The notes under the pieces: model-generated
What the model was told of the DNA's origin: nothing
What the model saw: only the letters and a program-made list of their open reading frames with translations
The model's database searches: none
Position numbers and translations under genes: made by a program
Shown: positions 3,218 to 13,092 of the stretch, in pieces
Numbering within the stretch: position 1 is the stretch's first letter
Layout: each line of letters opens with the position of its first letter
Source: Thermoanaerobaculia bacterium
Lineage (GTDB): Bacteria > Acidobacteriota > Thermoanaerobaculia > UBA5066
Assembly: GCA_022071945.1 (NCBI GenBank)
Contig: JAJVIN010000046.1
Span: forward strand, 62,001 to 126,000
Reading direction: 5' to 3'
DNA: 64,000 bases

Positions 3218-3856
3218 TCAGCTGCCCAGCTGTCTTCTGTCCGCGGACAGGAGGCCGTTCCGGAGGATGTCGGCGATGTCCGCGACGGCATCGTCTGATT
3301 CCTTGCCGAACTGACGCGGGACGCCGAAGAGCACCTCCACCGAGAAGTAGTGGAGAAAAATGCGACTCGCGAGCATGACGGCCGAGAGGCGGCAGACCCC
3401 GGGCCGCAGCTTCTGCTCCAGAGGCACCGCGGCGGGGTGGGCGGTGAGAAAGGCGTCGAAACGCGCCGCCATCCCCGAGTAGAAGTTCCGGATGTGGTTC
3501 CCTTCGAGTTCCACGACGTCGACGTAGATCAGCGCCACGTGCCGGCGCCACGCCTCGACGCTCTCCTTCGCCGCGCGCGCGAGGGCCTCGAGATCGTCCG
3601 GGAAGGCCCCCGAGGCGAGCGCCTTGTTGAACGGGAAGTCCGGACTCCTGATGGCGTCCCAGTACTGACCCAACAGCGTCTCGAAGACTTCTTCCTTGTC
3701 CCGGAAGTGGTGGTAGACGTTCCCCGTCGAAAGGTCCGCGGCACGCGCGATGTCTCGCATGCTCGTGCCCCGGTAGCCCCGCCGCGAGAAGAGTTCGAGC
3801 GCCGCATCGAGGATCTGCCCGCGGCTCCTCTCGGACTTCGCCTCTTGCTCCACCAT
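3218..3856 (-). CDS. TetR/AcrR family transcriptional regulator
   Basis: A 212-residue repressor of the TetR family. The N-terminal helix-turn-helix (about residues 10-62) has the family pattern: ILDAALELFSRRGYRGTSM, then RDIARAADLSTGNVYHHF and KEEVF. The C-terminal two thirds is helical ligand-binding domain and cannot be matched to a specific inducer. The gene is the last of a long leftward block and starts 7 bases after the stop of an alpha/beta hydrolase, so it is probably co-transcribed. The natural operator candidate is the palindrome at 13239-13256, just downstream of the promoter at the head of the block. That would make it an autoregulated repressor relieved by a substrate or acyl-CoA intermediate. 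Family assignment is firm; target and ligand are inference. Confidence 0.92.
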   Translation of the reverse strand: MVEQEAKSERSRGQILDAALELFSRRGYRGTSMRDIARAADLSTGNVYHHFRDKEEVFETLLGQYWDAIRSPDFPFNKALASGAFPDDLEALARAAKESVEAWRRHVALIYVDVVELEGNHIRNFYSGMAARFDAFLTAHPAAVPLEQKLRPGVCRLSAVMLASRIFLHYFSVEVLFGVPRQFGKESDDAVADIADILRNGLLSADRRQLGS

Positions 3857-3863
3857 CTCGTCC

Positions 3864-4721
3864 TCAGAATACCGTGGACTTGGCTGCCGTGAACCTGAGC
3901 AGCATCGGGAAGAAGACGTCCGGCCGCTCGAGGTACACGACGTGGCCCGACTCCGCGATCGGCTCCCAGCGCGCGTCCGGGAGGATCCCGACGATCTTCT
4001 TCTGGACCCACGGCGGGATGGCCCGGTCCTCCTCGCCCGGCATGACGAGAGCCGGGGTCCGGATCTCCCGGTAGCCAGGCATGTTTTCTTCCAGAGCGGC
4101 GAAGAACGGGTCCTGGGCCTCCGTCAGCCGGATCAGGGCGTGCAGCGAGTCCTTGTAACGGTCGTGGAACTTCCGGCGCATCGTGTCGAGGTTGTCCTTC
4201 ACCTTCCTCACGAATGCCTCGCCGAAGATCTTCTCGTACATGTAGTGCGTGTAGATCTCGAAGACCTCGGGACCGCCCCGGTAGAAGCGCAGAGAGAGCG
4301 CCTCGTACATCTCGAAGAGTTCCTCGTTGGAGAGCAGGATCCCGGAGAGCGTCAGCGTGTGGAGCCGCTCCTGGTGGAGGCGCGCGAACTCGAGCGCGAC
4401 GAATCCACCGTAGGAAATCCCCATGACGTGGGTCTTCTGGACCTTCAATTCGTCCAGGATCGCAACGAGGAAGCCAGCGAGGCTGGGAATGAGGACCGGC
4501 TCATCAGGGGCCGAGGACTCCCCTTGACCGAGGTAGTCATAGAGGATCACGTCGTGCTGCGGCAAGACGAACGGGAGGAAGCCGTACCAGGCCTTGCAGT
4601 GCATGGCCAGGCCATTGAGGAGGGCGATCGGCTCCTTCTCCCCCTTGCCGAAGTACTCCCAGTGAATCAGGTTCTCGCCTGCCGGGAGCAGTCCCTGACG
4701 GTCGGGCGCGATGTCTGCCAC
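3864..4721 (-). CDS. Alpha/beta hydrolase
   Basis: A 285-residue alpha/beta-hydrolase-fold protein without signal peptide. The nucleophile elbow is GISYGG with Ser103. The acid is probably the Asp in PGEEDRAIP and the histidine is in ESGHVVYLE, giving a complete Ser-Asp-His triad. HG-type oxyanion residues are replaced by NGLAMHCKAW near residue 36. The start is GTG at 4721. It precedes the tetR gene by 7 bases and is separated from the rest of the block by a 380-base gap holding repeats. The family hydrolyses esters, thioesters or C-C bonds. Its place in an operon with a CoA ligase suggests action on an acyl or ester substrate, but the substrate is not readable. Confidence 0.88.
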   Translation of the reverse strand: MADIAPDRQGLLPAGENLIHWEYFGKGEKEPIALLNGLAMHCKAWYGFLPFVLPQHDVILYDYLGQGESSAPDEPVLIPSLAGFLVAILDELKVQKTHVMGISYGGFVALEFARLHQERLHTLTLSGILLSNEELFEMYEALSLRFYRGGPEVFEIYTHYMYEKIFGEAFVRKVKDNLDTMRRKFHDRYKDSLHALIRLTEAQDPFFAALEENMPGYREIRTPALVMPGEEDRAIPPWVQKKIVGILPDARWEPIAESGHVVYLERPDVFFPMLLRFTAAKSTVF

Positions 4722-4776
4722 GGTCGCGGCCTCAGACCGCCAAGACCGGAGCGCTGAGGCACAAGCCTAGGGCTTT

Positions 4777-4935
4777 CCCTCCTCCGCGAGGCGCGCCGGG
4801 CGGGGGAGGGGGATCTCCTTCGTGCCCGGTGTGACGGCGGAGCATGCCGGCGACGGAATTCCCTCCCCCGCAGGGCGGGGGAGGGCCAGGGAGGGGGCGC
4901 CCCCACCCTCCCCTCCCCCGCCCCGCGGGGGAGGG
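4777..4935 (-). repeat. BIME-like palindromic repeat cluster
   Basis: Two copies of an 11-bp palindromic arm CCCTCCCCCGC/GCGGGGGAGGG with 3-base loops (4861-4885 and 4911-4935) stand in inverted arrangement around a central palindrome GGGGGCGCCCCC (4893-4904). The two roughly 38-base halves are near reverse complements, so each is a REP-like unit and the pair resembles a BIME. A diverged partial copy lies at about 4777-4815. The cluster occupies the only large gap (4722-5102) within the leftward hydrolase/ligase block. Confidence 0.75.
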
Positions 4936-4985
4936 AGTCACTTCTCCGGTGAGGATGCGTCGACATCCAAGAGACCTACCAGCAA

Positions 4986-5030
4986 GGGACTCGCGCGTAA
5001 GGGACTTGCGCGTAAGGGACTCGCGCGTGA
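4986..5030. repeat. Three tandem 15-bp repeats
   Basis: Three direct copies of GGGACTCGCGCGTAA, differing at one base each (C/T at position 6, A/G at position 14). They lie downstream of the palindromic cluster in the same gap. No open frame of credible length covers them. The remaining bases up to 5102 hold nothing I recognise. Confidence 0.8.
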
Positions 5031-5102
5031 GAAACCCACTCGTAGATCCCGGCTGCACAGGGGATACCGGACGGTCCAGTCGTTCAATCGCGGTTTCTGG
5101 AT

Positions 5103-5918
5103 TCACGACGTCACTCCCTCAGCGGCGTTCTCGGCCGCCAGGCTTTCGAGAAAGCGGGTGATGATGGAAACGGATTCCGCGGGGCGCTCGGCCACGACGG
5201 CGTGACCCGCGCCCGGCACCAGGAGCGTCTCGGCCCCGGGAATCGCTGCAGCCACGGCGAGAGACCTCTCGGCAGGCATGGTGACGTCTTCCCCGGCGAG
5301 AACGACGAGAGTGCGGCAGGAAATGGATGGGAGCAGGGACCCGATGTCGAGTCCCTCGAGCGACGCGAGGAGGCCCGCGAGCCCGGCGAACCAGCTGACC
5401 GGCAGGTACGAGATCACCTTCCGGCGGCTCGCGATCTCCAGGGCATTCGCCGCGGCCCACGCCGGGGAAAAGGCCGACCGCGCGATCAAGTCGTACACGG
5501 GCCCCCGCTCCCCGCCGGCGGCAGCCTCCTCCGCGGCCGCCCGGAGCGCGCCGAGGCCCGCGAGCATCGAACCATCGAATCGGTCCACGACCGTGAAGGC
5601 CACGAGAGACCTCACGCGGGAAGGGTGGCGCGCCGCGAGAACGAGTCCGGCCTCGCCTCCGAATGAGGCGCCGGCGACATGCGCCCGCTCGACCCCGAGG
5701 TGGTCGAGGAGCCGCGCCACGTCTTCGGCATGCTCCAGAAAGTCCGCGGGCGGAGGACCCGGCGTTCGAAGCTGGCCCCTGAAGTCGCACCGGATCACCC
5801 TGAAACGCCTGGCGAGCGGTGTCGCGATCTCGTTCCAGGCCGCCCAGCTCATCATCCCGCCGTTCAGGAGGACCAGCGGCTCGCCTGAACCGTCGACCTG
5901 GTGCGCCAGCAGCGTCAC
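5103..5918 (-). CDS. Alpha/beta hydrolase
   Basis: A 271-residue alpha/beta-fold hydrolase. Nucleophile elbow GASFGG with Ser85; Asp in LAGEDVTMP; His in GAGHAVVAE. An HG motif is replaced by LNGGMMSW, and CDFRGQ lies where D-x-R-G is usual, as in many esterases and C-C hydrolases. I set the start at the GTG at 5918: it forms a GTGA overlap with the stop of the upstream acyl-CoA ligase and has GGGAGAGGGG 4-8 bases before it. Longer frames upstream are read-through of the ligase gene. Tight coupling to the ligase implies equimolar synthesis and a shared pathway. Substrate unknown. Confidence 0.88.
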   Translation of the reverse strand: MTLLAHQVDGSGEPLVLLNGGMMSWAAWNEIATPLARRFRVIRCDFRGQLRTPGPPPADFLEHAEDVARLLDHLGVERAHVAGASFGGEAGLVLAARHPSRVRSLVAFTVVDRFDGSMLAGLGALRAAAEEAAAGGERGPVYDLIARSAFSPAWAAANALEIASRRKVISYLPVSWFAGLAGLLASLEGLDIGSLLPSISCRTLVVLAGEDVTMPAERSLAVAAAIPGAETLLVPGAGHAVVAERPAESVSIITRFLESLAAENAAEGVTS

Positions 5919-7456
5919 GGCGTCCCCCTCTCCCGGATCCATCGGTCGCGCAGTTCGCCCTTGACGACCTTCCCGTAGGCCGTCCGAGGGAGCGCCTCGA
6001 CGAAGGCGACCTCTTTGGGGAGCTTGTACTTCGCGAGCTTCTCGGCGGCGAAGGCGAGGAGCGCTTCCCCCGCGACTTCCTGGCCGGGTCTCTTCACGAC
6101 AAATGCCACGCCCATTTCGCCCCACACCTGATGGGGAACTCCCACCACGGCGGCATCCTGTACGGCCGGGTGAAGGAGCAGTTCCCCCTCGATCTCGGCC
6201 GGGTAGATGTTGACGCCTCCCGAGATCAGCATGTCCTTGCGGCGGCCGGCGATCGTGAAGAACCCCTCGTCGTCGCGCCGGGCGAGGTCACCCGTGTGGA
6301 AGAACCCTTCGGAGTCGAGAGCCGCCGCTGTCGCCTCCGGATTCCGCCAGTAGCCTTTCGACACGTGCTCTCCACGCAGGAGCAACTCCCCCACCTCTCC
6401 CACCGGGACCTCACGCCCCGTCTCGTCGACGAGCCGTGCCTCGGTGAACATCAGCGGCTTGCCGATGGACCCCTTCTTTCGCGCCGACTCCTCGACCGTC
6501 ATCGCGAAGCAGTTGACGCCCACCTCGGTCAGGCCGTAGCCCTGCTTGAAGACGATCCCGCGCTCCTGATAGGCCTCGATGAGGTAGAGCGGCAGGGGCG
6601 CCCCCCCGCTGATGAGCCATCGAACGGATTCGAGGTTGGCGGCCGAAAAGCAAGGCGCCTCCAGGAGCAGCTTCCAGATCGTCGGAACTCCGAGAACGAC
6701 GGTGCAGCGCTCGGCCTCGACCGTTCTCCAGATCTCGTCGGGGTCGAACCCGGCGTGAAGGACGACCGTGCCGCCGATGGCGATGATGGGCATGAGGAAC
6801 GCCCCCAGCCCTCCCGCGTGGTACAGCGGCGTGAAGACCGGGCTGACATCGTCTTCCCTCAGCTGCCAAGACACGGCCGTGTTGTAGGCGTTCCAGGCCA
6901 CCATCCGGTGCGGGACCATGACGCCCTTCGGCTTGCCCGTCGTGCCGCTCGTGTAGAGGAGCGCGTAGACGTCCTCTGGCGCGCACGGCGTCCGCGAAAA
7001 GCCAGGGGCCGGGGACTCGGCGATCGCGGCGTGGTAGCGAACATGACTCTCCACCACCGGAGAGTCGAGGCAGATCCAGTGCGGGATGTCGACGACGGAC
7101 CGGAGCGCGCTCACCGTGTCCGCGAAGGCGCCGTCGTAGACGAGAGCGGAGAGGCCGGCATCCTTGACGATGAAGGCGATCTCGTGAGGCGTCAGGCGGG
7201 TCCCGAGCGGGACGAGGATATGGCCCGTCTTGGCGCACGAAAAGAAGACGTCCAGAAACTCGACCCGGTTGTGCGAGAGGAGGCCCACTCGCTCCCCCTT
7301 CGCGATCCCGAGCCGGTCGCGGAGAAGGCTCGCACAGCCCTTCGCTCTGTCGTCCATCTGGCGGTAGGTGAGCCTCTCGGTCGTGGCAATCGAGACCAGG
7401 CCGATCTTCTCGGGGGTGAGGCGGGCCCGCTCGCCAAGGACATCGCCGTGGATCAC
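5915..7456 (-). CDS. AMP-forming acyl-CoA ligase (ANL superfamily)
   Basis: A 513-residue ATP-dependent carboxylate-CoA ligase. The ATP/phosphate loop YTSGTTGKPKG is at 168-178. Further core motifs are QGYGLTE, HTGDLARRDDEGFF and GRRKDMLISGGVNIYPAEIE, followed by the catalytic C-terminal lysine near residue 496 in AYGKVVKGEL. All residues needed for adenylation and thioester formation are visible. Length fits medium/long-chain acyl-CoA or aryl-CoA ligases. The start is GTG at 7456, overlapping the TGA of the preceding hydrolase as GTGA and preceded by AAGGAG. It lies between two hydrolases, downstream of a KASIII-like protein and an SDR. It probably activates the acid released by a hydrolase, or the product of the KASIII/SDR pair. 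Confidence 0.92.
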   Translation of the reverse strand: MIHGDVLGERARLTPEKIGLVSIATTERLTYRQMDDRAKGCASLLRDRLGIAKGERVGLLSHNRVEFLDVFFSCAKTGHILVPLGTRLTPHEIAFIVKDAGLSALVYDGAFADTVSALRSVVDIPHWICLDSPVVESHVRYHAAIAESPAPGFSRTPCAPEDVYALLYTSGTTGKPKGVMVPHRMVAWNAYNTAVSWQLREDDVSPVFTPLYHAGGLGAFLMPIIAIGGTVVLHAGFDPDEIWRTVEAERCTVVLGVPTIWKLLLEAPCFSAANLESVRWLISGGAPLPLYLIEAYQERGIVFKQGYGLTEVGVNCFAMTVEESARKKGSIGKPLMFTEARLVDETGREVPVGEVGELLLRGEHVSKGYWRNPEATAAALDSEGFFHTGDLARRDDEGFFTIAGRRKDMLISGGVNIYPAEIEGELLLHPAVQDAAVVGVPHQVWGEMGVAFVVKRPGQEVAGEALLAFAAEKLAKYKLPKEVAFVEALPRTAYGKVVKGELRDRWIRERGTP

Positions 7457-8388
7457 GGGGCAGGCTCCTTCCGGGCCGGCGGCGGCTGCGACAGGACACC
7501 GTCGAGGGCAGCGAGGAGCCGCTGGGGGCACTCCTGCTGCGGCACGTGCCCGCACTTCTCGACCCTCGTCAGGCGGGCTGCGGGCAACTCGGCGAGCATC
7601 TTCTCCGCGTAGGAGAGCGGCATGAGCCGGTCCGAGGCCCCCCAGACGATCTCGACAGGGACCGCGAGCGTCCCGAGCTTCCCGTCGAGAACGAGGCTCT
7701 CCATGCTCGAGGCTTTCTGCGCCATCCGGGCGATCGGGCCTTTCGACGCCGCGCGGATCACGTCCTTCATCACGAACTCGGGCGGGTGGAGGCTCTCCGG
7801 ATCGATCAGCGCGTCCATGAGCTTCGCGACCTCCGGAAGGGTTTTCGGCTGAAGCGTGAGACCGGAGGCGACGTGCGTGAGGGGTCCGCCGTTGACGAAG
7901 ACGACCCGCTCCACGCGTTCTGGATGCTTCTGGGCCCAGAGGGCCGCCATCCAGGCGCCGAGCGAGTTGCCGACGATCGTGACCTTGCCGTCAGGGGCCT
8001 CGGCCGCGAGGACGGCGTCGAGCGCGGCGAAGATCGTCTCGACGGCAAGGGGCCCGCTCGCGGGTTCGCTCTGGCCGTGTCCCGCCAGGTCGGGGATGAC
8101 GAGGCGGTGGCCGGCAAGAAGGTGCGGGACCACCTTCGAGAAGGCGCCGGCCTGGTCCCCGGCACCGTGGAGGAGAACGAGAACGGAACCCGAGCCGCCG
8201 TGGAACACGCTCTGCCGGCCGGCGGGGGTCTCGATGTCGACACGGACGAGTCCCGCCTTCTTCAACTCCCTGCGCCCCAGCCAGGCAAAAGCGGCGAGGG
8301 GACGCGTGAAGAAGATGACAACGGCGCCGAGGAGGAAGAGGACGGCGAGGACGCCGAGGACGAGGAGGACCTTGACCCAGGGCTTCAT
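7453..8388 (-). CDS. Membrane-anchored alpha/beta hydrolase
   Basis: A 311-residue alpha/beta hydrolase with an N-terminal hydrophobic helix (residues about 7-27, VLLVLGVLAVLFLLGAVVIF) that acts as membrane anchor or uncleaved signal. The oxyanion motif is LLHGAGDQAG, the nucleophile elbow GNSLGA (Ser142), Asp in WGASDRLMP, and His in KCGHVPQQECP. The start at 8388 has a strong GGAG site 8 bases upstream. Longer in-frame starts fall inside the KASIII gene and are not credible. Its stop overlaps the next gene's GTG. An anchored hydrolase in a block that begins with an outer-membrane receptor suggests processing of a lipophilic ester on arrival; this is inference. Confidence 0.88.
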   Translation of the reverse strand: MKPWVKVLLVLGVLAVLFLLGAVVIFFTRPLAAFAWLGRRELKKAGLVRVDIETPAGRQSVFHGGSGSVLVLLHGAGDQAGAFSKVVPHLLAGHRLVIPDLAGHGQSEPASGPLAVETIFAALDAVLAAEAPDGKVTIVGNSLGAWMAALWAQKHPERVERVVFVNGGPLTHVASGLTLQPKTLPEVAKLMDALIDPESLHPPEFVMKDVIRAASKGPIARMAQKASSMESLVLDGKLGTLAVPVEIVWGASDRLMPLSYAEKMLAELPAARLTRVEKCGHVPQQECPQRLLAALDGVLSQPPPARKEPAP

Positions 8389-8408
8389 CGCCGTTCTCCT
8401 TTCGCGCC

Positions 8409-9401
8409 TCAGGTCATCCGGAAGGCGACGCCGGCCTGGTTGTAGCCGACGCCCGAGCCGATGAGAACAACGAGGTCGCCACTCTTGATGAGCTTCTTCT
8501 CGATCGCGTCGTCGAGCGCCATCGGGATGCAGGCCGAGCCCGTGTAGCCCCACTCTCCCATGACCGTGTGGGTTCTCGACATCGGAAGGCCGAGGTCATT
8601 CATCACGAGTTCGATCGACGGCTTTCTCACCTGCGTGAAGATGATGAAGTCGATGTCCGAGAGACCGAAGCCTCCTTCCGAGGCGACGCGCCGCACGAGC
8701 CGCGGCCAGCCCTCGTGGTTGATCTCCGGCGGGTACCGCTCGACCATCTTGACCTTCGTCCGCCCAGCGGCAACCGCATCGGCTGTCGCCGGCTCGGCCG
8801 TCCCGCCCGAGTAGATCCCCCAGTGCTTGGCGTAGGCCCCATCAGCCTGGGAGGCCGCGTTCAGGAAGCCGGGAACGTCGCCCGGTTCGAGAACGGCGGC
8901 GCCGGCGCCATCCCCGTAGAAGTAGATCATCGGGTCGTTCGGGTCGGCGAGCTTGTGCATCATGTAGACGCCGACGACGAGAACCGTCTTCAGCGCCGGG
9001 TTCGTGGCGATGAGACCGGAGGCGACCGCGAACCCCATCGGAAAGGAGGCACAGGCGCAGCCGATGTCGAAGGTCCCCGCGTTCTTCGCCCCGAGCTTGT
9101 GCTGCAGGACGACGGATGTCGCGGGAGTGATGTAGTCGGGTGAGTCGGTGCCCAGGATGATGAGGTCGACGTCCTCGGGCTTCCTTCCGGCCTTCTCGAG
9201 CGCCTGCCGAGCGGCCGGGAGGGCCACGTCGGATGCGGCCCAGTCTTCCGGCGCGTACCAGCGGGTCCTGATGCCGCTCGAGGCTTCCATCTTGTCGACG
9301 AACTCGGGCAGGTGGGCAAAGCGGGTTCTCAGGGCGTCGTTCGAGATTTCGATCGGCGGCACATAGCGGCCGGTCGACACGAGGCGTGCGGTCGCGGGCA
9401 T
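8409..9401 (-). CDS. KASIII/FabH-like thiolase-superfamily protein lacking the catalytic His and Asn
   Basis: A 330-residue protein clearly of the beta-ketoacyl-ACP synthase III family. FDIGCACASF carries Cys117 at the acyl-accepting position, and the C-terminal GSGVGYNQAGVAF matches the family's glycine-rich end. Aligned by eye with E. coli FabH, the PHQAN histidine is replaced by Thr256 (FTQVRK) and the GNTS asparagine by Tyr286 (WGYTGSA). The usual Cys-His-Asn triad for decarboxylative Claisen condensation is therefore incomplete, though the acyl-enzyme cysteine remains. Some KASIII relatives act as acyltransferases with altered triads. The start at 9401 lies 4 bases after the SDR stop. 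It may transfer or bind acyl groups; the reaction is uncertain. Confidence 0.85.
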   Translation of the reverse strand: MPATARLVSTGRYVPPIEISNDALRTRFAHLPEFVDKMEASSGIRTRWYAPEDWAASDVALPAARQALEKAGRKPEDVDLIILGTDSPDYITPATSVVLQHKLGAKNAGTFDIGCACASFPMGFAVASGLIATNPALKTVLVVGVYMMHKLADPNDPMIYFYGDGAGAAVLEPGDVPGFLNAASQADGAYAKHWGIYSGGTAEPATADAVAAGRTKVKMVERYPPEINHEGWPRLVRRVASEGGFGLSDIDFIIFTQVRKPSIELVMNDLGLPMSRTHTVMGEWGYTGSACIPMALDDAIEKKLIKSGDLVVLIGSGVGYNQAGVAFRMT

Positions 9402-9405
9402 CGGC

Positions 9406-10191
9406 TCAGGTCCCCGGCACGAGGCCGCCGTCCACCGAGAGGACGGTGCCGTGGACGAACGAGGCGGCGTCGGATGCCAGCCAGACGTAGGCATTGGCGA
9501 TGTCGAGAGGCTCGCCCATCCGGCCGATCGGGGTGTGCGCCACCATCCCGTCGAGAACCTTCTGTGGCATCGCCTTCAGGATCTCGGTCGCCACGAAGCC
9601 CGGAGCGACGGCATTCACCCGGATCTTGTACTTTCCCAGCTCTCGTGCCCAGGTCTGCGACATGGTGATGACGCCACCCTTGGTGGCCGCGTAATTGGTC
9701 TGTCCGAAGTTGCCGTAAAGGCCCACGACCGAGGAGGCGTTGAGGATGACGCCTCCCCCCTGGGCGATCATCGCGGGAACAACGGCACGGGTACAGTTGA
9801 AGACGCCGCGCAGGTTGACGCCGATCACGGCTTCCCACTGGGCGTCCGTCATCGTCGCCGCGACGGCCCCGTCCTTCCACTTGACGAGCTGGGAGTCGCG
9901 GACGATCCCGGCGTTGTTGACCAGGACGTCGACCCGTCCCCACTTGCCAGTGACCTCGGAAAACGCCGCGTTCACCGCCTCGCTGTCGGCCACGTTGACT
10001 TTCCAGAAGGCACCCTCGCCACCGGCCCTGGCCAGCTCGGCCACGAGTGCCTCTGCATCCCGGTCGTCGACGTCCCAGGCGGCGACCTTGCAACCTTCCT
10101 GTGCGAAGCGCAGGGCGGTCGCCTTGCCAATTCCCGCCGCAGCGCCGGTCACGATGACAACTTTGCCGGAAAGACCCGTTTCAATGCTCAT
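9406..10191 (-). CDS. SDR-family oxidoreductase, FabG-like
   Basis: A 261-residue classical short-chain dehydrogenase/reductase. Cofactor motif TGAAAGIG (15-22), VNNAG after beta-4, and the catalytic set Asn126, Ser154, Tyr167 and Lys171 (YAATK). The C-terminal GxxLSVDGGL is typical. An Asp at the end of beta-2 (AAWDVDD) favours NAD(H) over NADPH by the usual rule. The family reduces 3-ketoacyl thioesters or oxidises 3-hydroxy compounds. It is 4 bases ahead of the KASIII-like gene and follows the TonB receptor by about 100 bases, so it probably handles a 3-keto/3-hydroxyacyl group in the same pathway. A FabG housekeeping role is less likely given the neighbours. Confidence 0.92.
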   Translation of the reverse strand: MSIETGLSGKVVIVTGAAAGIGKATALRFAQEGCKVAAWDVDDRDAEALVAELARAGGEGAFWKVNVADSEAVNAAFSEVTGKWGRVDVLVNNAGIVRDSQLVKWKDGAVAATMTDAQWEAVIGVNLRGVFNCTRAVVPAMIAQGGGVILNASSVVGLYGNFGQTNYAATKGGVITMSQTWARELGKYKIRVNAVAPGFVATEILKAMPQKVLDGMVAHTPIGRMGEPLDIANAYVWLASDAASFVHGTVLSVDGGLVPGT

Positions 10192-10287: not shown

Positions 10288-13092
10288 TCAGTAGGCCAGC
10301 CGGAACCCGAGTTGAACCCTTCGGGAATCCTCCGGGATCGAGCGGGTATAGACGCCGAAGTTCGGGTTCAGATTCGCCGGGAGCGGCGCGGTCCGCGCGG
10401 TCCCGCGGAGGTACTCGGCGCTATCCACCGAGGTCACGTCGTAGTTCACGGTGTTGAAGACGTTGAAGACCTCTCCGATGACGTCGAGATTCAGGGAGGG
10501 GCCAAGGCTGAAGCTCTTGGTCAACCGGAAGTCGAAGCGGCGGTACGGCGGGCCGTCCTCGGCAAAGCGGTCGACCCCGGCCGGCCGGTCGGAGTTGAAG
10601 CCGTCACCGTTCCAGTCGTACCCGAGCCGGTGCGTCCAGGGCTGGCCCGTGCCGTACTGGAAGATCGGCGCCACCGTGAACTTCAGGGGGAGGCGGAAGA
10701 CGCCCGAGAGCACGACGCGGACTTTCTCGGTAGAGCGGGCGCGGCCCCACTCACCCTCGATGTTCGCGGGGTCGTTCGGGTAGCCGGTCGGGTACTCGGG
10801 ACTGAAGTCGTCGTTGAGGTTCTTCTTGTCCGCGAACGTCACCGACCCCGTCAGGATGTGGCCGCCCTTCATCGTTCCGTTGAGGGCGACCGTGAGCGCC
10901 TTGTACTCCGAGTGCCCCTCGTTCGTGTAGGTGTTGATGTTGGAGTAGTCCCGATTCGGGCGGACCGGAGGGTTTGCGTTCCCGGCCCAGTTGACGTCCC
11001 TGTTGATGAGCTCGTTGCGCCCCTTGGCGTAGACGCCCTCGATGTCGAGATACAGGCCCGTTGCGCCGAGCCGGGTCGTCAGACCGAGGCTCGTCTGGTT
11101 GGCCTCGGGCGCTTCCACGGTCGCGTCGAGAAGGGTGATGGCCGGAGCCGTCGGGAGCCCTGTCGCCGTCGGATTGTTCGGGTCGAGGGCGAGAGCCGGC
11201 AGGCCAAAGAGCGCTCCGTTGAGGCGCGTCACGATCTTGCGTCCCGTCACACCGTTCTGCTGGAGTTCCGTGAAGGCCGGAACGAGGAGGTAGCGGCCCG
11301 TGAAGATGCCCCAGCCGCCGCGCGCCACGAAGGCGCCGTCGTTCTTGATGTCCCACGAGAATCCGATTCGCGGCTGGATGTTGTCGGTGTCCGTCCCGCG
11401 CGGGTTGGGAACCAGCGGGTGCGTGAAGTCGGGGTTGTTCCCATCCGTGTCGAGGTCGTAGCGGAGACCGAGGCTGACGGTCAGGTTGCTCCTCGGGCGC
11501 CAGTCGTCCTGCACGAATGCGGCGATCCGGTCCGTCGTGATCGTGACGTCACTCGATCCGATGCCGTACAGGTACGCGTACGGAATGGTCTTGTTGTCGA
11601 GGAGCCAGAGGAAGAGGCCGTTCTGGTACGTGTCGATGATCGACCGGTCCTTCACGTGCTGCCAGCCCGCCCCGATCTTGAGATCGTGGGTACCCGTCTT
11701 TCCCGCCAGGTGCATGTAGAGGGTGTCCCGCAACTCGAACTGGTCGCCCTCACCGAGGAGGTCGCCCACGATGTTGCCCCCCGAGCGAAGCGTGTTCCCG
11801 AGCGAGTACCAGTCGCCCACCGCCCGGGAGTTCATCGGCTCGTAGTACTTCCGGTGCCCGGCCTGGAATCGCGCCTCGTTCGTCGTCGTGTTCCCCGCCA
11901 TCCAGCTATGGGCGGCGGTGAAGTTGTAGTTGTCGCGCTGCAGCTCCTGGCCGTAACTGACATCCTGGATGCCGCCGACGCGGAAATTGTCCATCCGGTA
12001 GCGCTCGTAGTCCCCCTTGGCGAGAAGGTTCATCTCGTCCGTGAGCTGAAACGCCACGGAGCCGAAAACGAGCAGCTGGTTGAAGGGGTTCTCCGCGTCG
12101 ACCTTGTTCGACGTCGCGAACGCACCGCCCGGACGGACGAGAGCTGCCTTGACGTTGTCGACATACTCGGCCGAGAGGAAGAAGTGGGTCTTGTCCTTGA
12201 CGATGGGTCCGCCGAGCGTCAGGCCACCTTGACCCCGGTGGGGCTCGATATCCGAGTCCAGCTCCTTGTACTCCTTGGCGCGCAGCCAGTCAGGCAGGTA
12301 GTAGGCGAAGGCAGTGCCCTTGACGTCGTTGGTCCCGGTCTTCGTGAGAACCGTGAGGGCGCCGCCCGAGGAGCCTCCGACTTCGGTATCAAAGCGGCTG
12401 TTGACGACGCGGAACTCGGAAATCGCGTCCTGCGAGACGCGCGTCTTGGCCAATCCCAGCGCGGGGTCGGTGTAATCGACTCCGTCCACCAGGATAGTGG
12501 ACTGGCTGGCGTTCCCCCCGGAACCAATCACCGGACCACCCGAGATGAAACGAAAGTCGCCGCGCTCGCGCTCGACCCCGGGCGCGATGAAGGCGAGCTT
12601 CTCGAACTCGCGGTTCGGGACCGGAAGCTCCCGGATCTGCTCCGGAACGATGTTCGTCGAGGAGTCCGTCTTGTAGACGTCCACCGTCTGAGCCTCGGCC
12701 ACGACCGTGATCGACTCGGTGACCGCCTTGGCTCGAAGGACGATCCTGAGCTTGGCGGTCTGCCCGACCCGGAGCGTTGCCGGCTGCTCGACGGGATCGA
12801 AGCCGGAGAGGCTCGCCTTGACGGTGTAGCCAGGCGCGGGCGTCACGGCCGGGAAGCGCGCGCTCCCCCTCGCCGAGGTGACGGCCACCCGGACGAAGCC
12901 CGTCTCGGCCCGCTTCAGCTCGACGGACACGCCCGGGAGCCCGATGCCCGTCTCGTCGACGACATCCACCTCGACGGTGGCGTCGGCCGACTGGGCCTGT
13001 GCCAGGCGTCCCGAAGGAACCGCCAGCCCGAAAAGCACCCCGGCGGCGAGCGCCAGGACACCGGTGAAAGAACGAATGGAGACCCTCGACAT
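10288..13092 (-). CDS. TonB-dependent receptor, Oar-like, with carboxypeptidase-regulatory domain
   Basis: A 934-residue outer-membrane receptor. A signal peptide (1-34, cleavage after AQA) is followed by a carboxypeptidase-regulatory-like beta domain (about 40-125, VDVVDETGIGLPGVSVEL), a plug domain (PVPNREFEKLAFIAPGV, then SQSTILVDGVDYTDPA), and a long beta-barrel ending in VQLGFRLAY with a terminal aromatic residue. This architecture is the Oar/SusC-like form abundant in Acidobacteriota. The start at 13092 has GGAGG eight bases upstream. It is the first gene after the promoter and TetR-type palindrome at 13239-13294. Its likely job is energised import of the compound handled by the following enzymes; substrate unknown. 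Confidence 0.93.
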   Translation of the reverse strand: MSRVSIRSFTGVLALAAGVLFGLAVPSGRLAQAQSADATVEVDVVDETGIGLPGVSVELKRAETGFVRVAVTSARGSARFPAVTPAPGYTVKASLSGFDPVEQPATLRVGQTAKLRIVLRAKAVTESITVVAEAQTVDVYKTDSSTNIVPEQIRELPVPNREFEKLAFIAPGVERERGDFRFISGGPVIGSGGNASQSTILVDGVDYTDPALGLAKTRVSQDAISEFRVVNSRFDTEVGGSSGGALTVLTKTGTNDVKGTAFAYYLPDWLRAKEYKELDSDIEPHRGQGGLTLGGPIVKDKTHFFLSAEYVDNVKAALVRPGGAFATSNKVDAENPFNQLLVFGSVAFQLTDEMNLLAKGDYERYRMDNFRVGGIQDVSYGQELQRDNYNFTAAHSWMAGNTTTNEARFQAGHRKYYEPMNSRAVGDWYSLGNTLRSGGNIVGDLLGEGDQFELRDTLYMHLAGKTGTHDLKIGAGWQHVKDRSIIDTYQNGLFLWLLDNKTIPYAYLYGIGSSDVTITTDRIAAFVQDDWRPRSNLTVSLGLRYDLDTDGNNPDFTHPLVPNPRGTDTDNIQPRIGFSWDIKNDGAFVARGGWGIFTGRYLLVPAFTELQQNGVTGRKIVTRLNGALFGLPALALDPNNPTATGLPTAPAITLLDATVEAPEANQTSLGLTTRLGATGLYLDIEGVYAKGRNELINRDVNWAGNANPPVRPNRDYSNINTYTNEGHSEYKALTVALNGTMKGGHILTGSVTFADKKNLNDDFSPEYPTGYPNDPANIEGEWGRARSTEKVRVVLSGVFRLPLKFTVAPIFQYGTGQPWTHRLGYDWNGDGFNSDRPAGVDRFAEDGPPYRRFDFRLTKSFSLGPSLNLDVIGEVFNVFNTVNYDVTSVDSAEYLRGTARTAPLPANLNPNFGVYTRSIPEDSRRVQLGFRLAY

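Follow-up and report, generated by a model that had tools for sequence, protein, structure and literature searches.

A KASIII-fold protein family of Acidobacteriota and myxobacteria with Thr and Tyr at the positions of the catalytic His and Asn, encoded in an operon that looks catabolic

In FabH, the nucleophilic Cys and a backbone oxyanion hole are enough for acyl transfer, and the His and Asn of the Cys-His-Asn triad serve the decarboxylative condensation. In the E. coli enzyme, the CoA clamp is formed by Trp32, Arg36, and Arg151, and ACP docks at Lys214 and Arg249. The key pair of archaeal HMG-CoA synthase is Cys114 and Glu82, and this enzyme forms a complex with a thiolase and a DUF35 protein (PMC6392133). 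PhlA, the KASIII-like subunit of PhlABC, has lost both the Cys and the acidic residue and is inactive; the chemistry falls to PhlC (PMC6392133). The steroid-side-chain aldolases Ltp2 and Sal, which have a thiolase fold, break C-C bonds by means of a catalytic Tyr that stands in for standard thiolase residues (PMC12329534).

The gene considered here lies on the minus strand of the window (the 64,000-nucleotide stretch of DNA that was analysed), with its ATG at 9401 and a TGA ending at 8409, and encodes a KASIII-fold protein of 330 amino acids (Table 1); read on the plus strand, positions 8409-9401 do not encode this protein. ACP_syn_III and ACP_syn_III_C are the only Pfam domains that the protein matches. 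A preliminary description of the gene held that the Cys of the triad is kept while His and Asn are replaced by Thr256 and Tyr286, and this is confirmed by the codons (ACG and TAC) and by three alignments. Phmmer alignments to solved FabHs pair T256 with the catalytic His and Y286 with the Asn, and the same result is obtained in the family alignment with E. coli FabH and in a profile alignment with an archaeal-type HMG-CoA synthase. (In the family alignment, FabH-type sequences taken from searches give the same pairing without the E. coli FabH reference.) A substitute His or Asn hidden at the same two positions was looked for, and none aligns there. The triad is truly broken, reading Cys117-Thr256-Tyr286, and the earlier judgment that the normal decarboxylative condensation is unlikely is supported.

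Table 1. Coordinates in the window of the KASIII-fold gene, its active-site codons, and the neighbouring genes
Feature	Position	Strand	Basis
KASIII-fold protein, Cys117/Thr256/Tyr286, 330 aa	8409..9401	-	ORF, Pfam, structure model, Foldseek, VIA-align
Cys117 codon TGT, presumed nucleophile, FabH Cys112 position	9051..9053 (9053-9051)	-	family alignment and codon read-out
Asp86 codon, aligned with catalytic Glu of HMG-CoA synthase	9144..9146	-	family and profile alignments
Asn228 codon, FabH Ala216 position	8718..8720	-	family alignment
Thr256 codon ACG, FabH His244 position	8634..8636 (8636-8634)	-	family and profile alignments
Tyr286 codon TAC, FabH Asn274 position	8544..8546 (8546-8544)	-	family and profile alignments
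TonB-dependent receptor-like outer-membrane protein (TBDT), carboxypeptidase-regulatory-like domain, first gene of presumed operon	10288..13092	-	domains; conserved
FabG-like short-chain dehydrogenase (SDR), 261 aa, 4 bp upstream of KS gene	9406..10191	-	conserved beside KS gene
Alpha/beta hydrolase ABH1, N-terminal hydrophobic stretch (likely membrane anchor), GNSLG nucleophile motif	7453..8391	-	conserved
AMP-forming acyl-CoA synthetase (ACS)	5915..7459	-	conserved
Alpha/beta hydrolase ABH2, PcaD-like, below curated cut-off	5103..5999	-	profile match
Alpha/beta hydrolase ABH3	3864..4721	-	profile match
TetR-family regulator	3218..3856	-	Pfam

The Cys/Thr/Tyr combination is an old family trait, which could not have been visible to the preliminary description. 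It is present in every homologue read (about 100), down to 36% identity. All 82 close family rows in GTDB genomes (65-84% identity to the window protein) have it, so that Thr and Tyr are indeed fixed in close homologues; it also occurs in 11 of the 11 sequences read from a second Acidobacteriota group (41-47% identity), in myxobacterial members as low as 36% identity, and in a Chloroflexota plasmid member at 64% identity. Homologues in the same operon were searched for a standard triad, and none has one. More distant KASIII matches from these genomes are either Cys/His/Asn or of the PRK06840 type, with no intermediates, and the FabH paralogues of the same genomes and phyla are Cys/His/Asn. In a tree of 84 sequences, a single branch (SH-aLRT 100) parts the 62 Cys/Thr/Tyr proteins from the 22 Cys/His/Asn proteins. 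The divergence of the window gene from its nearest homologue is 0.71 at synonymous and 0.11 at nonsynonymous sites; purifying selection, together with the family-wide fixation, rules out a local mutation, a sequencing error, or a pseudogene or decaying gene. Since the window's genome holds separate Cys/His/Asn KASIII paralogues, the gene is not needed as that genome's FabH.

With matches of at least 317 bits counted, about 40 of 297 Acidobacteriota genomes have the family; in the myxobacterial phylum, at 390 bits or above, it is present in 15 genomes out of 237. In the phyla of Ectothiorhodospiraceae and Acidimicrobiia bins it is rare (2/349 and 1/246 genomes, E-value 1e-85), and isolated cases there could be binning errors. 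One locus (L017, at 8718 and 9974) has two tandem copies of a Cys/Thr/Tyr gene. Literature searches returned no described family with this triad, which is weak evidence of absence given that most subscription papers lie outside their coverage.

The preliminary description also regarded the fold as otherwise intact. This holds for the fold itself, which is KASIII over the whole chain, but it passes over two changes: the residues with which FabH clamps CoA and docks ACP are lost, and Asp86 and Asn228, two further polar positions, are fixed. The AlphaFold model (mean pLDDT 89.9, least certain around residues 190-215) finds its best structural matches among FabH structures with both Foldseek (TM 0.88 to 4ryb) and VIA-align (Z 45.1 to 4dfe, 2.0 A over 318 residues); HMG-CoA synthase is absent among the 50 VIA-align matches listed, which is not evidence against relatedness. 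The family alignment shows that Cys117 and the Gly317/Gly319 oxyanion loop are retained. FabH residues W32, R36, R151, K214, and R249 are shared by all or almost all of the FabH-type sequences, but the Cys/Thr/Tyr proteins have mostly lost them; at these positions the window protein has F34, S41, no counterpart, E226, and P261, respectively. Conversely, a column-by-column comparison brings out residues that every family member has and that FabH-type sequences rarely or never have: Asp86, Asn228, Trp232, Pro224, Tyr146, and Met281. All 62 family members in the tree have C117, D86, N228, T256, and Y286, where the 22 FabH-type sequences have C, then V, I, T, or L, then A, H, and N; the Asp86 position is never acidic in the latter. 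Two independent profile alignments agree in placing Asp86 on the catalytic Glu of HMG-CoA synthase, and the spacing from Asp86 to Cys117 is 31 residues, compared with 32 in that enzyme. By alignment and phylogeny, the proteins with Cys117, Asp86, Thr256, and Tyr286 (C-D-T-Y) are a distinct KASIII-fold family, mostly acidobacterial and myxobacterial. As far as its sequence indicates, the C-D-T-Y protein is more than a FabH altered at two residues, and it is not an HMG-CoA synthase either; the polar residues fixed around its retained nucleophile are a set of its own.

The surroundings of the gene, which the preliminary description likewise could not take into account, look catabolic. From the SDR to the acyl-CoA synthetase, the genes overlap or are separated by gaps of a few bases, and so they are likely to form one operon. 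The order TBDT-SDR-KS-ABH-ACS-ABH(-thiolase)-ABH-TetR recurs in relatives. In many of these, an SCP2-type thiolase, identified by its thiolase domains and by matches to solved SCP2-type thiolases, lies between the second and third hydrolases; it is also absent from the operons of several others. In the window, its place (4722-5105) has no thiolase. Within this gap lie a palindromic repeat rich in GC (4861-4885 and 4911-4935) and three direct repeats of 15 bases. A search of the window's own genome (96% complete) gave no match to the relatives' SCP2-type thiolase, and the same search was positive in two control genomes. In this genome, either the KASIII-like enzyme would manage the proposed cleavage by itself or another thiolase would fill in.

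Other lineages place the C-D-T-Y gene in different company. In Holophagaceae, it is found with a TetR regulator, a thiolase, an SDR, a likely porin, a branched-chain-amino-acid-type ABC importer and its binding protein, a hydrolase, and a CoA-transferase. The Holophagaceae clusters (L031 12020, L041 13605) encode a protein of about 444 amino acids without a Pfam match; it starts like a signal peptide and ends in Phe, features that suggest a porin of the outer membrane. Genes of the PRK06840/NF005308 type lie beside the Cys/Thr/Tyr gene in L183/L184 and L063, and nearby in L055, L185, L186, L187, L071, and L082; the two kinds of protein may act together. A Chloroflexota plasmid (L120, CP069395.1 44343-50341) carries an SDR, the C-D-T-Y gene, a CoA-transferase, a thiolase, a DUF35 protein, a hydrolase, and a LIV-type ABC importer, and the presence of a complete cluster on a plasmid indicates that the pathway may move horizontally. 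In two myxobacterial loci, a sodium:solute symporter adjoins the C-D-T-Y gene. Thus, the type of importer and the activating enzyme are swapped around a constant core, which points to a pathway for the uptake and breakdown of an imported organic acid or ester.

Taken together, these observations lead us to a tentative reading, to which we give somewhat less than an even chance: the C-D-T-Y protein would not act as a FabH but would use its KASIII fold to catalyse a C-C bond step by way of an acyl-enzyme, within an uptake-and-breakdown operon. The substrate would be imported and then hydrolysed by the alpha/beta hydrolases. The product would be activated to a CoA ester, by the acyl-CoA synthetase here and by the CoA-transferase in other lineages, and the SDR would oxidise this ester to a keto compound to be handled by the C-D-T-Y enzyme. 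Cys117 would attack the carbonyl to give an acyl-enzyme, using the usual backbone oxyanion hole; Asp86 would be the acid/base, and the hydrogen bonds that His and Asn make to the enolate or the substrate carbonyl would come instead from the Tyr286 and Thr256 hydroxyls. That Asp86, Tyr286, and Thr256 lie close to Cys117 is predicted from the alignment. Overall, C-C cleavage, either thiolase-like or retro-Claisen, is the most likely reaction, with an HMG-CoA-synthase-like condensation less likely; judging from gene context, cleavage is probably the direction. Against this reading, a complete SCP2-type thiolase is present in the operons of many relatives, and thus the thiolase step need not belong to the C-D-T-Y enzyme, and HMG-CoA synthase itself retains a His at the Thr256 position. 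The more specific proposal, that this is an undescribed KASIII-fold family of Acidobacteriota and Myxococcota in which Thr and Tyr stand in for His and Asn, Asp86 has been recruited, and the reaction is degradative C-C cleavage of an imported substrate, is possible and is offered with greater doubt.

The preliminary description suggested acyltransferase or thioesterase-like roles, and these are still live as rivals, although the extra invariant acid makes a simple acyl carrier a less likely role. Were the protein an acyltransferase or hydrolase of the KASIII fold, working as CerJ and ChlB3 do, it would pass an acyl group from Cys117 to a hydroxyl, a thiol, or water, and would neither make nor break a C-C bond. 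The retained Cys and oxyanion-hole glycines would be enough for such a transacylation, and KASIII-fold acyltransferases with other triads do exist, ChlB3 and CerJ having Cys-His-Asp (PMC9573744). However, these two enzymes keep an essential His (PMC9573744), whereas in the family alignment the sole His of the C-terminal catalytic region is His278, which is absent in 2 of the 62 members; moreover, three serine hydrolases are already present in the operon. On balance, we consider a role of this kind unlikely. A second alternative is that the protein is a non-catalytic, structural partner of another thiolase-fold subunit, like PhlA in PhlABC. A thiolase is adjacent in Holophagaceae and in many operons, and in the Chloroflexota plasmid cluster the thiolase, DUF35, and C-D-T-Y genes occur together, as they do in PhlABC and the archaeal complex (PMC6392133). 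This is nevertheless improbable: the Cys and the acidic residue that PhlA lacks (PMC6392133) are both invariant in the C-D-T-Y family, and the gene is kept without that thiolase in the window's genome and in some relatives. We give equally little credence to a condensing enzyme that joins an acyl-CoA to another acyl unit with Tyr, Thr, and Asp in place of His and Asn, for instance in an HMG-CoA-synthase-like step that assimilates an imported ketone or keto acid, because, for all that the fold is the same and Asp86 sits at the Glu position of HMG-CoA synthase, the import-type neighbours and hydrolases favour breakdown and the replacement of the ACP-docking Lys214 and Arg249 is contrary to a malonyl-ACP reaction.

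If the proposed acyl-enzyme mechanism holds, it would represent a new active site in the thiolase superfamily, where a Tyr, a Thr, and an acidic residue from a different loop make up for the two hydrogen-bonding residues that have been lost. The family also offers a way into a probable uptake pathway common to many uncultured soil and sediment Acidobacteriota. One annotated relative is labelled 'ketoacyl-ACP synthase III'; this automatic fatty-acid-synthesis label is probably wrong for what looks like a breakdown enzyme.

Among known systems, FabH (4dfe, 4ryb, and E. coli 1hn9) shares with the C-D-T-Y protein the full-length fold, the nucleophilic Cys, the Gly oxyanion loop, and about 30% identity. 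It differs in its His/Asn pair, its CoA-clamp and ACP-docking residues, its want of the extra Asp86 and Asn228, and the catabolic-type operon seen here; the window protein falls below the NCBIfam fabH cut-offs (TIGR00747, 165.5 versus 292.1; PRK09352, 188.3 versus 249). The bacterial and archaeal HMG-CoA synthases (TIGR01835, TIGR00748, 6esq) share the Cys and, as far as the profile alignments show, an acidic residue, located in GT(D/E)(S/T) 31-32 residues before the Cys (GTE or GSE in HMG-CoA synthase). One C-D-T-Y lineage also has thiolase and DUF35 genes as neighbours, which recalls the archaeal complex. In contrast to them, the C-D-T-Y protein has Asp rather than Glu, Thr for the catalytic His (a profile alignment places Thr256 on the His of AVFHQPNG), a shorter chain, and no mevalonate context, and its scores are far under the corresponding cut-offs (TIGR01835, 24.9 versus 360.35; TIGR00748, 30 versus 353.35).

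The PhlABC Friedel-Crafts acylase provides a precedent for reversible C-C chemistry and is similar in the loss of CoA-binding residues and, for one lineage, in the grouping of KASIII-like, thiolase, and DUF35 genes; unlike the inactive PhlA, the C-D-T-Y protein retains the Cys and the acid. Ltp2 and Sal belong to the SCP2-thiolase branch, depend on DUF35, and have no acyl-enzyme Cys at the FabH position; they are not homologous at the family level, and the thiolase Pfam domains and YDxF of such aldolases are missing from the window protein, which matches only ACP_syn_III domains. OleABCD brings together the same superfamilies (KASIII, alpha/beta hydrolase, AMP-forming ligase, and SDR). Membership in that system is rejected: OleA is Cys-His-Asn, the hydrolases here have a serine nucleophile motif, the SDR is a classical FabG-type enzyme, and the score against PRK09258, which we take to be the model covering OleA, is 92.6 (cut-off 285), with the triad broken. 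Finally, the PRK06840 (NF005308) proteins also have a KASIII fold with a rewritten triad, and they adjoin the C-D-T-Y gene in Holophagaceae; they differ in their motifs, LHxKxSA and GHxGQND, in which the His is shifted and the Asn position is also occupied by His, and they score about 75-95 bits to the window protein. The KASIII fold family is already known; the C-D-T-Y proteins, a conserved group whose active site has been rewritten, are, on present alignments, a new variant within it.
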